Shown one piece after another: positions 1-4,951 of a stretch of DNA of 49,004 nt. How positions within the stretch are numbered: the stretch's first letter is position 1; each line of letters opens with the position of its first letter. Location: positions 1-49,004 of the forward strand of contig JAFKES010000075.1 of NCBI GenBank assembly GCA_017308495.1, written 5' to 3'. A model generated the notes under the pieces. That model was not told the origin of the DNA, made no database searches, and worked only from the letters and a program-made list of their open reading frames with translations. A program made the translations under genes and the position numbers. The DNA is from Afipia sp. (GTDB lineage Bacteria > Pseudomonadota > Alphaproteobacteria > Rhizobiales > Xanthobacteraceae).

Positions 1-878
1 AAAAAGGATTCGAGGCGGTCGGCAACATATTTTACGGGACGGCCGAGCATCATGCTGAGGCCAACCACGGCCATGTCCTCGTGATAGACATGGAGCTTCA
101 TGCCGAACGAGCCGCCGATGTCCGGCGCGATGACGCGAACGCTGGCTTCGGGGATGTCGTAGTAGCGCGAATAGATATCCTGGAATTGATACGGCGTCTG
201 CGTCGCGTGATGCACGGTCAGCTGCCGCTCGCTCGGATTGTAATCGGCAACGATGGCGCGCGGCTCCATGGTCACCGCGGTGTGGCGTCCGAAGGTGAAT
301 TCGCCTTCCACAACATGCGCGGCGCTCTTGAAGATATCGTCGATGCCGCCGGTATCGAGTTTGGCGTGAAAACACACATTGTCCCCGAGCTCGGGCGAAA
401 TGATCTCGCTGCCCGCCTCCCGCGCGGCATCGAGATCGACCACCGCGGCGATTTCCTCGAACCCGATCATCACCGCTTCGGCGGCGTCTTCGGCTTGCGC
501 GCGGGTATCCGCCACCACGGCGACGACGGCCTGGCCGGCCCACACCACCTTGCCGACCGCGAGCGGCCACTGCTCGGATGACTTCATGCCCTTGAAATGA
601 TCCAGCGTCCCGACCCAGGGCTTGCAGAGACGCGACAGGTCGTCGCCCGTCGCAACCAGGCGCACGCCCGGCATCGCTCTGGCGTCGGCGACATCGATCG
701 ACACGATGCGGGCATGGGCATAGGGGCTGCGGACAAACGCCGCGTGCAGCATGCGCGGCAACACCAGATCGGTGACATAGCGGCCGCGGCCGGCGAGCAG
801 CCGCTTCGCATTCGGCCGGGGAACGGAGCGGCCGATATAGGAATTCGGCCGGTCGATGGCGTGGAGGGGGCCGTTCAT
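1..878 (-). CDS. Molybdenum hydroxylase large (Mo-cofactor) subunit, N-terminal part; runs off the left edge
   Basis: Read on the minus strand from ATG at 878, the frame stays open to base 1, giving the first 292 residues of a protein whose family is normally about 750-800 residues. It resembles the molybdopterin-binding subunit of xanthine dehydrogenase/CO dehydrogenase-type enzymes. The N-terminal hammerhead domain shows LLAGRGRYVTD (27-37) and AFVRSPYAHARI (47-58). MEPR (204-207) and GGSFGMK (255-261) match conserved segments lining the Mo site. The start overlaps the stop of the 2Fe-2S gene (ATGA, 875-878), so the three subunits are probably cotranslated. The active-site loop that separates CO dehydrogenases from other hydroxylases lies outside the window, so the substrate cannot be named. 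Truncation is due to the window edge. Confidence 0.9.
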   Translation of the reverse strand, partial: MNGPLHAIDRPNSYIGRSVPRPNAKRLLAGRGRYVTDLVLPRMLHAAFVRSPYAHARIVSIDVADARAMPGVRLVATGDDLSRLCKPWVGTLDHFKGMKSSEQWPLAVGKVVWAGQAVVAVVADTRAQAEDAAEAVMIGFEEIAAVVDLDAAREAGSEIISPELGDNVCFHAKLDTGGIDDIFKSAAHVVEGEFTFGRHTAVTMEPRAIVADYNPSERQLTVHHATQTPYQFQDIYSRYYDIPEASVRVIAPDIGGSFGMKLHVYHEDMAVVGLSMMLGRPVKYVADRLESF

Positions 879-1411
879 GCGCCCACCTCTTCGCTCATGG
901 GCCGGTCCATTGGCCGGTTCTTGGGCCGATCCGAACCAGCCTCTCGCTGCCGCGCGACCGTCTCGATGGCATCGACGATCGCCTCATAGCCGGTGCACCG
1001 GCAGTAATTGCCCGACAGTCCGTCGCGGATCTCCTCGCGCGACGCGGTCTGGCCGGTCTTGAGCAGGTGGTAGGAGGTGACGAGCACCCCCGCCGTACAG
1101 AAGCCGCACTGCAGGGAATTGCGCTGATGGAACGCCTGCTGCAGGTCGGAGATCGCTCCGCGACCATCCAGACCTTCGATGGTTTCGATCACCATCCCGT
1201 CGGCCTGCACCGCGAACATCAGGCAGGCATGGATCGGTTTGTCATCGAGCAGGACGAGGCAGGCCCCGCACGCGCCCATCTCGCAGCCGAGATGGGTTCC
1301 GGTCAGTTGCAGCGTCTGACGCAGAAAATCCGCCAGCGTGTCGCGCGGCGCCACATGATGCGACACCGTCTCGCCGTTGACTGTCAGTGTGACGGGCGTT
1401 CTGTCGGTCAT
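875..1411 (-). CDS. Molybdenum hydroxylase small subunit, 2Fe-2S (CoxS-like)
   Basis: This 178-residue iron-sulfur subunit passes electrons from the Mo centre to FAD in xanthine dehydrogenase-family heterotrimers. A plant-type ferredoxin domain carries C43, C48, C51 and C63 (GCEMGACGAC core), and an all-helical second cluster domain carries C102, C105, C137 and C139 (QCGFC and YCRC). Both cluster sets are complete. The last 20 or so residues (after about 155) are a charged, Pro/Arg-rich tail not typical of the family and probably disordered. The gene overlaps both neighbours by 4 bp (ATGA at 1408-1411 and at 875-878), giving the order FAD subunit, 2Fe-2S subunit, Mo subunit in one operon. Family assignment is secure; the substrate is unknown. 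Confidence 0.95.
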   Translation of the reverse strand: MTDRTPVTLTVNGETVSHHVAPRDTLADFLRQTLQLTGTHLGCEMGACGACLVLLDDKPIHACLMFAVQADGMVIETIEGLDGRGAISDLQQAFHQRNSLQCGFCTAGVLVTSYHLLKTGQTASREEIRDGLSGNYCRCTGYEAIVDAIETVARQREAGSDRPKNRPMDRPMSEEVGA

Positions 1412-2268
1412 GCCGCCTCCCTCACGCGCTGGAGAAGCCGCCCCATCAGCACCCGCGCCAGATGCATCCGCATCGCGGCGGTCATGTGCGTGTCGTCCGG
1501 GGGATCGAGATCGCCCTCCAGCGCCTCCTGCGCACGCCGGATCGCCGCGGCGTCGAGGACACGGCCCGCCAGCGCGGCCTCGGCCCCTCTGGCGCGAATC
1601 GGCGTGGGGCCGACCGAAATGAACGCGATGCGCGCCTCGGCCACGGCGCTGTCGTCGAATGACGCCATCACCCCCGCGCCGACGATGGCATAGTCGCCGC
1701 GCCGCCGCGCCAGTTCGTCGAAGGCCCAGCGCTGGTTCGGCTTCACCGCCGGCACATGTAGGGCAACCAGCAGTTCGCCCGGCTCAATCGCGGTCTGATA
1801 CAGATCGATGAAGAAATCCGCGGCGGCGACGCGACGCACGCCGGATGGACCGGCGATTTCCATCTGCGCATCGAGCGCCAGCATCATTCCCGGAAATTCC
1901 GACGCCGGATCAGCTAGCGCGACGCTGCCGCCCAGTGTCCCCTTGTTGCGGATCGCCGGATGCGCGACATGCGGCGCGGCTTCGCTGAGCAGCGGGGCGT
2001 GCGCGCGGATCAGGGGATCGCTGAGCGTCTCGCAATGACGGGTCAGCGCGCCGATGCGCAGCCAGCCGCCCTCAAGGGCGATCCCCTTCATGGATTGGAT
2101 ATGGGAGACATCGACCAGCAGCGACGGCGCCTGCAGACGCATCGCCAGCGCCGGCACGAGGCTCTGCCCGCCGGCGATATAGCTCGCGTCGCCTTCCGAT
2201 CCCGCATAAGCGCCAAGCGCACCCTCGACCGTCGTCGGGCGCACATAGCTGAACGCTCTGGCTTTCAA
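1408..2268 (-). CDS. Molybdenum hydroxylase medium subunit, FAD-binding (CoxM-like)
   Basis: This 286-residue FAD subunit (family usually 280-300) is the first gene of the operon. IAGGQSLVPALAMRL and TLGGSVALADPASEFP match the two flavin-binding segments of the family, and a CO dehydrogenase flavoprotein C-terminal domain follows. I chose the TTG start at 2268 because GAGGGAGG stands five bases before it and the resulting N-terminus (MKARAFSYVRP) is the usual one for the family. An in-frame ATG at 2292 would add eight residues encoded by the ribosome binding site itself. The stop overlaps the next start by 4 bp. The upstream palindromes at 2301 and 2354 suggest control by the divergent TetR gene. 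Confidence 0.92.
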   Translation of the reverse strand: MKARAFSYVRPTTVEGALGAYAGSEGDASYIAGGQSLVPALAMRLQAPSLLVDVSHIQSMKGIALEGGWLRIGALTRHCETLSDPLIRAHAPLLSEAAPHVAHPAIRNKGTLGGSVALADPASEFPGMMLALDAQMEIAGPSGVRRVAAADFFIDLYQTAIEPGELLVALHVPAVKPNQRWAFDELARRRGDYAIVGAGVMASFDDSAVAEARIAFISVGPTPIRARGAEAALAGRVLDAAAIRRAQEALEGDLDPPDDTHMTAAMRMHLARVLMGRLLQRVREAA

Positions 2269-2300
2269 CGAAACCTCCCTCGAGGCAGCCATCCAGATTT

Positions 2301-2420: not shown

Positions 2421-3158
2421 ATGGCAAAAAACGCCGCCAAATCAGCAACAAAGAAAGCGCCGCCAAAGAAGAGACAGCCGCCGCGGCGGCACAATCTGCG
2501 CGCCGCTGAGCGCGAGCAGGTCATTCTCGACGAGGCCATCCGGTTTTTTGCCGAGCGCGGTTTCGAGGGCCAGACCCGCGAACTGGCCAAGCGCATGGGC
2601 ATCACCCACGCCACGATCTACCGCCACTTTCCGAGCAAGGAAGCGCTGGTCGAGCGCGTCTACGAACACATCTATCTGAGCCGCTGGAATCCGGACTGGG
2701 GCCCGCTGATCCGCGACCGCCGCCGGAGTCTCGAAGCAAGGCTGACGCAGTTCTATCTCGAATATGTCGAGCGCGTGTTCGACTACAACTGGGTCCGGAT
2801 TTTCGTGTCGTCGGGCCTGAAATCGTTCGATATCACCAAGCGCTATCTGGCCATCGTGCGCCGCGAGGTCGTCGAACCGGCCTGCCGGGAATTACGATAC
2901 GACCTGAATCTGCCGGGCGTCGACACCGTGCCGTTGTCGGAACGCGAGCTTGAGATGTTCTGGGGCCTGCACGGCCGCATCTTCTATCTGGCCATCCGGC
3001 GCTTCGTCTACGACACGCCGACGCCCGCTCACCTCGACGACATCGTGCGCGACGCCGTCACAGGCTTCCTCAACGGCTCAAAGGACCTGATGCCGGCCCT
3101 TGTGGCCGACATCGCCGCGGCCAAAAGCGCGGCGCGCAAATCCGCCGGCGCTCAGTAG
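2421..3158 (+). CDS. TetR/AcrR family transcriptional regulator
   Basis: This 245-residue protein has a basic Lys/Ala/Pro-rich N-terminal extension (1-30), then a TetR DNA-binding domain. The helix-turn-helix lies at about 51-70, with ITHATIYRHFPSKEAL as the recognition-helix signature. The C-terminal ligand domain (about 90-225) is not one I can tie to a ligand. The gene is divergent from the molybdenum hydroxylase operon, and two related palindromes in the shared spacer make that operon and itself the likely targets. Its 3' end overlaps the convergent cupin gene by 7 bp. No strong ribosome binding site precedes the ATG. Family is certain; ligand and sign of regulation are inferred. Confidence 0.93.
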   Translation: MAKNAAKSATKKAPPKKRQPPRRHNLRAAEREQVILDEAIRFFAERGFEGQTRELAKRMGITHATIYRHFPSKEALVERVYEHIYLSRWNPDWGPLIRDRRRSLEARLTQFYLEYVERVFDYNWVRIFVSSGLKSFDITKRYLAIVRREVVEPACRELRYDLNLPGVDTVPLSERELEMFWGLHGRIFYLAIRRFVYDTPTPAHLDDIVRDAVTGFLNGSKDLMPALVADIAAAKSAARKSAGAQ

Positions 3159-3583
3159 CCGTTGTCGGCGTTGCGCGCCATGAAGGTCGCGGGCGTCCCG
3201 TCTTTCGGATCGACGAAGATGATGTCGGTCGGCTCGCGCCGAGGCGTGTCGATCGACATGAAGACCACGGGATGCTCGTAAAGCTCCGGCATGGCGTGAA
3301 CGGTGCCGCGTTCGAAAAATAGCAGCTGGCCCGGCCTGAACTCGATCTTGGTCGACTCGTCTTTTGACCAGAAGGTGCCGCGGCCGGAAAAGACATACAG
3401 ATACTCGTCGCAGGTCGCATGATAATGCGGCGGCGTCGGACGATAGACCCGGAAAACACGCGCGCTCGCCTGCTCCCGATTCGTCAGATAGGTATCGACC
3501 AGCAGCGTCTTAGCGGTGTCCGGCATGGCCGCGGCAATCGCCTCGATGTCGAAGCAGCCTGTTGATTGCGAGTTATCAGACAT
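3152..3583 (-). CDS. Single-domain cupin protein
   Basis: This 143-residue protein has a conserved cupin metal-binding motif 1, HYHATCDEYLYVFSG: His-x-His, four residues, Glu, six residues, Gly. A weaker motif 2 follows around PGQLLFFERGTVHAMPE, whose histidine could be the fourth metal ligand. The ATG at 3583 has a GGGA ribosome binding site 8-9 bases upstream; a longer frame reaching 3682 lacks one. The reaction is unknown, since small cupins may be dioxygenases, isomerases or binding proteins. It is convergent with the TetR gene and overlaps it by 7 bp. A link to the hydroxylase pathway is possible only by proximity. Confidence 0.85.
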   Translation of the reverse strand: MSDNSQSTGCFDIEAIAAAMPDTAKTLLVDTYLTNREQASARVFRVYRPTPPHYHATCDEYLYVFSGRGTFWSKDESTKIEFRPGQLLFFERGTVHAMPELYEHPVVFMSIDTPRREPTDIIFVDPKDGTPATFMARNADNGY

Positions 3584-3718
3584 AAACGATCCCTGCGGGG
3601 CTGATGAGCGCAGATCAGCGCGACGTCGGTGAGGTAAAGTCTTTTCTCGCGAGATCAAGCTCGATGCCTTGATCGGGATCAAGATGCTTCACACGACGCC
3701 CGCGGCCGGTCGTCGGCC

Positions 3719-4795
3719 TCACCCCTTTTTCTTTTCTTTCGGGCTGCGCATGGTGAAGCGCGCATTGCCGAGCCCGGTGCCGATGGTGAGGATTCCCCAA
3801 CGGCGATAGTCCTGCATGAAGGGGATCTCGCTCAGGCCCTGCACCACGCCATCGTTATGCATGAGCACCACGGTGTCGTGATCGCCGATCGTCGGGATCA
3901 GGTCGATCAGGCTGTTCGGGAGGTTGAACCGGCTGCTTTCCCAGTTGCCCGGCAGGTTCTGCGCGCCTTTTTCGATGGACCCGTCCGCATCGATGGCTCC
4001 CGGACAGGAGATGCCGATGAACGGCGCAAGCTTCAGGCCCTTAGCCTCTGCCGCCTTGAGCAACCCCTTCAGCATTCCGGCGAGCGTCTTCACCGCGCCT
4101 TCCCGCGTCGGCCCGTCGTCGGCATGACACCACAGTTCGGATTTCCAGACCGACGCCTTCGACAGATCCGGCGCTTTCTTCTGGCGGGTTTCCACCACGC
4201 CGCAACGGATATTGGTGCCACCGATATCGACCGCGAGCAGGCTGTCATAGCCCTCGAAGATCCAGGACGGCGCGAGATGCGTGCAGCCGATCAGCGCGGC
4301 CTCGTCGGGATGAAAGCGGATCGGGATCAGGCCCGCCTTCACGCCCTGCGCCGCCAGAATGATGCTGGCCCGCGCAATGGCCAGTTCGCCGATCCGGCTT
4401 TGCCGGAATCCGCCGCCGACGATGATCGCCTCGGTCTTGTCCCATGCCTTGGTCTTGAGAAAGCGCTGCGTGACATAAGCCAGTTCCTGGGCGAACTCCT
4501 CGATGGCGCTATGGACCAGGGCGGCGGCTTCGACATCCGCGCCGATCAGGATTTCGTCCAGCTTCTTTTTGCTGATGTCTTCCGTGGATTTGGCGCCGAA
4601 CGGGTCTTCGCCATTTTTCTTCAATGGTTTCCGCCATTTATCCAGAATATCCTGGAACGCTCTTTTGCTGGCACGATCACCGAGAAACCCGTCGTCGTCC
4701 TTGAGCTCGATGTTGTAACTGTCAATGTCCACGGACGGCAGCCGGGAGGCGCCATGGTTGCCGATGCCTGCGGTCGTCAGCGTGTCCTCGCCCAT
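3719..4795 (-). CDS. ROK/sugar-kinase-like ASKHA protein with circularly permuted motif order
   Basis: A 358-residue actin/hexokinase-fold protein. Motifs that end a normal ROK kinase come first: a helix before IIVGGGF (124-130), then HPDEAALIGC (162-171). The motifs that start a normal ROK kinase come afterwards: phosphate-binding LLAVDIGGTN (186-195), PGAIDADGSI (265-274), NLPGNW (280-285), HNDG with the probable catalytic Asp (D315), and TIGTGLGN (337-344). The chain stops soon after the second phosphate motif. The ROK zinc motif (CxCGxxGC) is absent. ATP binding and phosphoryl transfer are plausible; the substrate is unknown. No ROK-type helix-turn-helix is seen. It stands alone between the cupin gene and rplU. 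The permutation is inferred from motif order, not from an alignment. Confidence 0.75.
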   Translation of the reverse strand: MGEDTLTTAGIGNHGASRLPSVDIDSYNIELKDDDGFLGDRASKRAFQDILDKWRKPLKKNGEDPFGAKSTEDISKKKLDEILIGADVEAAALVHSAIEEFAQELAYVTQRFLKTKAWDKTEAIIVGGGFRQSRIGELAIARASIILAAQGVKAGLIPIRFHPDEAALIGCTHLAPSWIFEGYDSLLAVDIGGTNIRCGVVETRQKKAPDLSKASVWKSELWCHADDGPTREGAVKTLAGMLKGLLKAAEAKGLKLAPFIGISCPGAIDADGSIEKGAQNLPGNWESSRFNLPNSLIDLIPTIGDHDTVVLMHNDGVVQGLSEIPFMQDYRRWGILTIGTGLGNARFTMRSPKEKKKG

Positions 4796-4923
4796 TCAGC
4801 CCCCCTTGATGATGGTAGGACAACGGTTCGGGAACCGGATGGTTGCGCCGTCCCTCAAAAGATAAGTCGCCCCAAAATCGCGCCAAACAGCCGAGAAACC
4901 TGCTATTTCCGGGGCCTTTCAGC

Positions 4924-4951
4924 TTGACTCACGGCTTTGAGCCGCTATAAA
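4924..4951 (+). promoter_or_regulatory. Sigma-70-type promoter of the rplU-rpmA operon
   Basis: TTGACT (4924-4929) and TATAAA (4946-4951) are separated by 16 bp. Initiation near 4958 would leave a leader of about 130 nt before the rplU ATG at 5091. The spacer from the ROK gene start (4795) to rplU holds no other clear feature. I could not assign the leader to a known ribosomal-protein leader RNA. Confidence 0.65.

Follow-up and report, generated by a model that had tools for sequence, protein, structure and literature searches.

The gene at 3719..4795 and its motif order

The window analysed here is the whole of a 49,004-base contig (GenBank JAFKES010000075.1) from an Afipia sp. genome of 4.02 Mb. 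One of its minus-strand genes encodes a 358-residue protein which, judging from its rotated motif order, the conservation of that order, and profile and predicted-structure comparisons, very probably has the fold of a circularly permuted ROK-type protein (Table 1). The minus-strand frame is the coding one: in comparisons with five relatives most differences fall at third codon positions (18, 9 and 75 at the three positions against L002), so the 356-residue open reading frame (ORF) on the plus strand (3857-4927) is a shadow ORF. Long antisense frames overlie the gene in distant relatives as well.

The sequence-only reading had placed the ROK motifs in rotated order, and all of them are found in the translation: IIVGGGF (residues 124-130), HPDEAALIGC (162-171), LLAVDIGGTN (186-195), PGAID (265-269), NLPGNW (280-285), HND (313-315) and TIGTGLGN (337-344). 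Among 135 distinct family sequences the order GGG, D[IV]GG[TS]N, HND, GTGLG is universal, and the linear ROK order does not occur (0/135). The pattern [AVI]GGG[FLM] is present in 134 of them, as are GGG[FLM] and the LIG motif. The ND of ROKs carries the catalytic Asp, and we take Asp315 to play the same role here. As had been claimed, the zinc motif is missing: no family sequence contains CxCGxxGC (0/135), a pattern that is not universal in ROKs and matches 13 of the 22 ROK sequences of our comparison set.

Table 1. Positions of the gene, its parts and its neighbours in the window, with (last row) the upstream regions that carry the EcfG motif.
Feature	Position	Strand	Basis or remark
Gene of circularly permuted ROK-like protein, 358 residues (fold predicted)	3719..4795	minus	ORF list, translation, family search
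Residues ~19-173, predicted C-terminal part of ordinary ROK (rest of C-lobe)	4277..4741	minus	Pfam match of relative L029, profile score 54.7-54.9, model of residues 11-183
GGG, residues 127-129, old C-lobe adenosine-motif glycines	4409..4417	minus	invariant in 36 sequences
Linker, residues 174-184, old C-terminus to old N-terminus	4244..4276	minus	secondary structure of model
Residues 185-350, predicted ROK N-lobe, catalytic ND segment and first C-lobe hairpin	3746..4243	minus	
Phosphate 1 motif DIGGTN, residues 190-195	4211..4228	minus	D[IV]GG[TS]N in 135/135
HND, residues 313-315, putative catalytic Asp315	3851..3859	minus	135/135
Phosphate 2 motif GTGLGN, residues 339-344	3764..3781	minus	135/135
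New C-terminal tail, residues 351-358, and stop	3719..3745	minus	mean predicted local distance difference test (pLDDT) score 60 in last block of model
Cupin gene	3152-3682	minus	near permuted gene
TetR regulator	2421-3158	plus	
Ribosomal protein L21 gene	5091-5471		divergent from permuted gene
Ribosomal protein L27 gene	5563-5832		divergent from permuted gene
EcfG motif upstream: L213, L215, L217, L219, L222, L223, L138, L027, L121, L122, L124, L125, L127, L128, L130, L132, L135, L140			

The old termini are joined by a linker, as proposed, though not one of about 15 residues: the secondary structure of the model gives about 11. The new termini fall in the region through which ordinary ROKs bind zinc and sugar, using GExGH and GCxE. 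In the family alignment of 36 sequences His14, Gly39 and Asp40 are invariant, and the ROK sugar-binding Glu/His (GExGH) and Glu (GCxE) are unaligned, with His14 and Asp40 displaced from them by one or two positions in two mutually inconsistent alignments. The C-terminal tail is longer in several relatives and rich in Lys, Glu and Asp.

Comparison with ROK proteins

Single-sequence searches reach the two parts unevenly. The window protein matches Pfam ROK (PF00480) at 17.3 bits (residues 187-277 to profile positions 2-78), below the curated cut-off of 22.9, whereas its relative L029 scores 36.7 bits in two stretches and L142, once rotated, 32.2, both above it. The second half of L029 aligns with profile positions 2-143 and its first half alone (residues 44-177) with 179-291 (E 0.048). 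When single sequences are rotated the two Pfam ROK stretches stay unmerged.

The rotation is resolved by profiles. A family profile built from 36 sequences was aligned by hhalign with the 22 ROK sequences, whose frames were taken from the matches themselves and two of which (L171, L175) have no intact phosphate 1 motif. In native order the second half scores 90.3 over 133 columns, and the first half separately matches the ROK C-terminal part (54.7 over 96 columns; 54.9, E 1.4e-7, as a first-half profile). With the second half joined to the first at the natural junction, as the sequence-only reading had suggested, a single alignment of 281 columns is obtained (score 127.6, E 1.6e-17). Among 13 cut points compared the natural junction scores highest, with 94.2, 110.4 and 122.1 on the approach and 91.4 just past it; 100 control profiles with shuffled first-half columns score between 87.7 and 92.9. 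Against this set the profile rotated at the junction aligns collinearly with ROKs from end to end better than in native order or at the other cut points, and the cut-point and shuffling controls indicate that the rotated order is more than chance. An earlier run gave 124.7 for the rotated profile against 88.9 and 51.0 with a less clean ROK set (27 loci, seven without an ORF; the remaining 20 include a Glk-type glucokinase, L158, and a few wrong frames); another early comparison used six ROKs, also from an unclean set. With the four-ROK set rokB, rotation raises the best score from 41.4 to 65.3.

We also looked for an unpermuted form with the rotated profile and found none in 299 genomes of the phylum, with at most six candidates scored per genome. 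In these genomes the profile splits the permuted genes into two pieces at the expected place. The other matches, all above E 1e-9, cover only its N-terminal part (best E 4.2e-8), and the four inspected (L209-L212) are ordinary zinc-motif ROKs.

Predicted models were compared with ROKs part by part, in lists where the absence of a family does not exclude that family. Residues 182-350 match the N-terminal part of ROKs, the ROK match having 26% identity at 1.9 Å. The first half modelled alone (residues 11-183) matches the ROK C-terminal part with a modest Z, and the 13 best rows of its structure list are ROK-type proteins. Pfam halves, rotated-profile alignment and predicted structure together support the proposal of a natural circular permutation.

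Known ROK kinases (PF00480; e.g. the TIGR00744 glucokinase and the N-acetylmannosamine kinase domain of human GNE, 2yhw) share with the permuted protein the phosphate 1, NLPGW-like, ND, phosphate 2 and GGG motifs, and their profiles and folds match both of its parts. They differ from it in that its order is rotated, its zinc motif is absent, its termini lie in the sugar-binding region, and its HND-adjacent and linker segments are longer. The inorganic polyphosphate/ATP glucomannokinase (1woq) and polyphosphate-glucose phosphotransferase (NF045942) likewise have the ROK fold and give comparable weak profile scores, but are linear. Glk-type glucokinase (PF02685) is also an ASKHA sugar kinase with a DIGGTN loop; four such sequences align with the family profile over 15 columns only, at the phosphate 1 loop, and the window protein has no PF02685 match up to E 1. 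Our searches in the accessible parts of the open-access literature (including PMC1976428, PMC1079889 and PMC6200981) turned up no report of circular permutation in a ROK or any other ASKHA sugar kinase, and the variant is apparently undescribed. A permuted pair of ribonuclease H-like domains has been reported (PMC12667903), in an article whose main text does not contain the words kinase, actin or ROK.

Distribution, neighbouring genes and promoter motif

Counting the window's own genome each time, 31 of the 61 genomes in a set of relatives have a family match, as do 40 of the 297 from the order and 16 of the 299 from the phylum; three of the last 16 (G360, G512, G529) belong to another class. 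Matches in G011, G017, G263 and G266 are fragmentary. A scan of species genomes confirmed at least 567 encoding stretches, of which the best 80 were retrieved; close relatives by name include Afipia, Rhodopseudomonas, Bradyrhizobium, Tardiphaga and Nitrobacter. Plasmids also carry the gene (206 of 72,556 records, mostly Rhizobium, 111, and Sinorhizobium, 79), and the plasmid copies listed, where annotated, are usually labelled 'ROK family protein'. At G207:C151:167222-167341 (L147) a fragment corresponding to the family's first 40 residues, possibly a duplication remnant, lies ~3.6 kb from a full copy.

The window's genome has no PF00480 or PF02685 match above the cut-offs. Across the 23 genomes of the genus (G000-G022), a Glk-type glucokinase match is present in 10 and absent from 13, among them the window's genome, so hexose phosphorylation varies within the genus. 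The idea that the permuted protein is the missing glucokinase of the genus is weakened, since nine of these 10 also carry a full-length permuted gene.

In the window, GNAT acetyltransferase and Obg genes accompany L21 and L27 on the divergent side (Table 1). Before the TetR gene, 875-2292 (minus) encodes molybdenum hydroxylase-type 2Fe-2S and FAD-binding subunits (CO or xanthine dehydrogenase-like). The genome has a trehalose-phosphatase gene, located elsewhere and not beside the permuted gene.

Neighbours elsewhere were first obscured: longest-ORF calling and clustering gave no conservation past close relatives, a misleading result because antisense shadow ORFs displace the real genes in GC-rich DNA. 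By tblastn with annotated neighbours, otsB (trehalose-6-phosphate phosphatase) was found at 19 of 169 loci tested, three of which coincide with another locus. Its distance from the permuted gene is at most 724 bp at 15 distinct loci, none of them in the window's bacterial family (13 divergent, two on the same strand), and 3.65 kb at L041; many loci carry a flank of only 1.5 kb, which makes the counts a lower bound for distant copies. The 15 loci are on Rhizobium and Shinella plasmids and in genomes of families f20, f2 and f24, and perhaps stand for three or four independent lineages. At L182 (2993-6436, genome G126) an OtsA-like gene (517 bits, short of the curated 565), a PfkB kinase gene and otsB precede the permuted gene, one trehalose cluster thus holding two unrelated sugar kinases, PfkB-type and permuted ROK-like. 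Two S. meliloti plasmids have an NAGGN osmoprotectant peptidase gene as the divergent neighbour; neither this nor otsB is near the Phyllobacterium copy. Three distinct loci have a ferritin-like gene (DUF892 in L187) no more than 813 bp away, and at a fourth the distance is 5.4 kb.

Distant relatives frequently have a stress-type promoter motif. For R. etli the EcfG motif is given as GGAAC-N16-CGTT (PMC3892343). With a spacing of 16-17 allowed, it is present in 18 of the 35 distinct upstream regions (150 bp each) from relatives below 70% identity (antisense 4; background 2/1124), 59-124 bases before the residue-1 position. Among closer relatives it occurs in one of 100 upstream regions (background 1/3496), that of a plasmid copy, and a search upstream of the window's own gene did not find it. 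A looser first count had given 20 sense and 8 antisense occurrences among 136 upstream regions. The chromosomal gene of the window's bacterial family has no EcfG promoter and, within the flanks, no otsB beside it; its role in that family may therefore differ. In B. diazoefficiens trehalose synthesis is reported to be under EcfG (general-stress) control and required for normal symbiosis, in an article whose main text mentions neither ROK nor glucokinase (PMC8092242). Searches for ROK together with Rhodopseudomonas palustris, EcfG or RpoE2 found no paper on this gene in the accessible literature (including PMC11387232).

Assessment of fold and function

We consider it likely that the protein is a naturally permuted ROK relative and a kinase, with a role linked to stress or trehalose. 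The old termini would be joined by the short linker, and the new ones opened within the C-lobe just past the phosphate 2 hairpin (GTGLGNARF), at the point from which the chain of an ordinary ROK continues into its sugar-binding and zinc region. The two lobes of the chain are predicted to come together as a normal ASKHA clamp, in which the phosphate 1, phosphate 2, adenosine and ND motifs would occupy their customary positions. The protein is probably an active kinase, and the most likely reaction would be transfer of phosphate from ATP to a sugar hydroxyl; glucose as the substrate is less likely than not. Because many relatives outside the window's family have otsB alongside and an EcfG-type motif, we propose that sugar is phosphorylated around stress-induced trehalose synthesis, e.g. 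to supply glucose-6-phosphate for OtsA. We regard it as an even chance that, in lineages with this context, the protein has a role with trehalose or other osmolytes. A more specific version, doubtful as it stands, is that a permuted ASKHA kinase was recruited to the alphaproteobacterial general stress response and phosphorylates a sugar destined for, or recycled from, trehalose or other osmolytes. The chain ends would then lie on the sugar side of the cleft, where the tail, variable and charged, could act as a gate to the site or be sensitive to ionic strength.

Three observations weigh against a permuted ROK kinase: with the four-ROK set rokA, rotation brings no gain (110.8 to 109.6); the sugar-binding and zinc region is altered and houses the new termini, with the zinc motif missing and the ROK Glu and His unaligned; and the first half resembles ROKs weakly, that of the window protein itself having no Pfam ROK match. 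The second of these would suit a permuted ROK that has lost catalysis and regulates stress or trehalose metabolism by sensing a sugar or nucleotide, and some ROKs are indeed repressors (5f7r and 1z05 are among the structure matches). We think this unlikely, since phosphate 1, HND and phosphate 2 are kept in all 135 sequences, and the two lobes take up the whole chain in the model, leaving no room for an extra DNA-binding domain. A permuted glucokinase or mannokinase of the PPGK type, polyphosphate- or ATP-dependent, would fit the weak profile scores noted above, but the TIGR00744 ROK glucokinase scores slightly higher and many ROKs score alike; we hold this assignment to be quite improbable. 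An unpermuted, collinear two-lobed ASKHA protein, with the first half as lobe I, the second as lobe II and the rotation a mere effect of lobe resemblance, is very improbable: such matches have 9-14% identity at 3.2-4.8 Å, against 26% and 1.9 Å for the ROK match, the phosphate 1 loop would fall in lobe II with none in lobe I, and the profile alignment requires rotation, the first half matching the C-terminal and not the N-terminal ROK part. That an unrelated N-terminal domain has been fused to a truncated ROK N-lobe, as the weak resemblance of the first half might suggest, is scarcely credible given the first-half profile match, the ROK-type proteins in the 13 best rows and the near-universal GGG[FLM] and LIG motifs.

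Order-dependent tools detect just half of this family, and annotation gives a plain 'ROK family protein'. The protein would show, as an experiment of nature, whether an ASKHA clamp can withstand a break in the C-lobe beside the phosphate 2 hairpin. Where otsB and the EcfG motif accompany the gene, they suggest a so far unexamined participant in the stress sugar metabolism of rhizobia.
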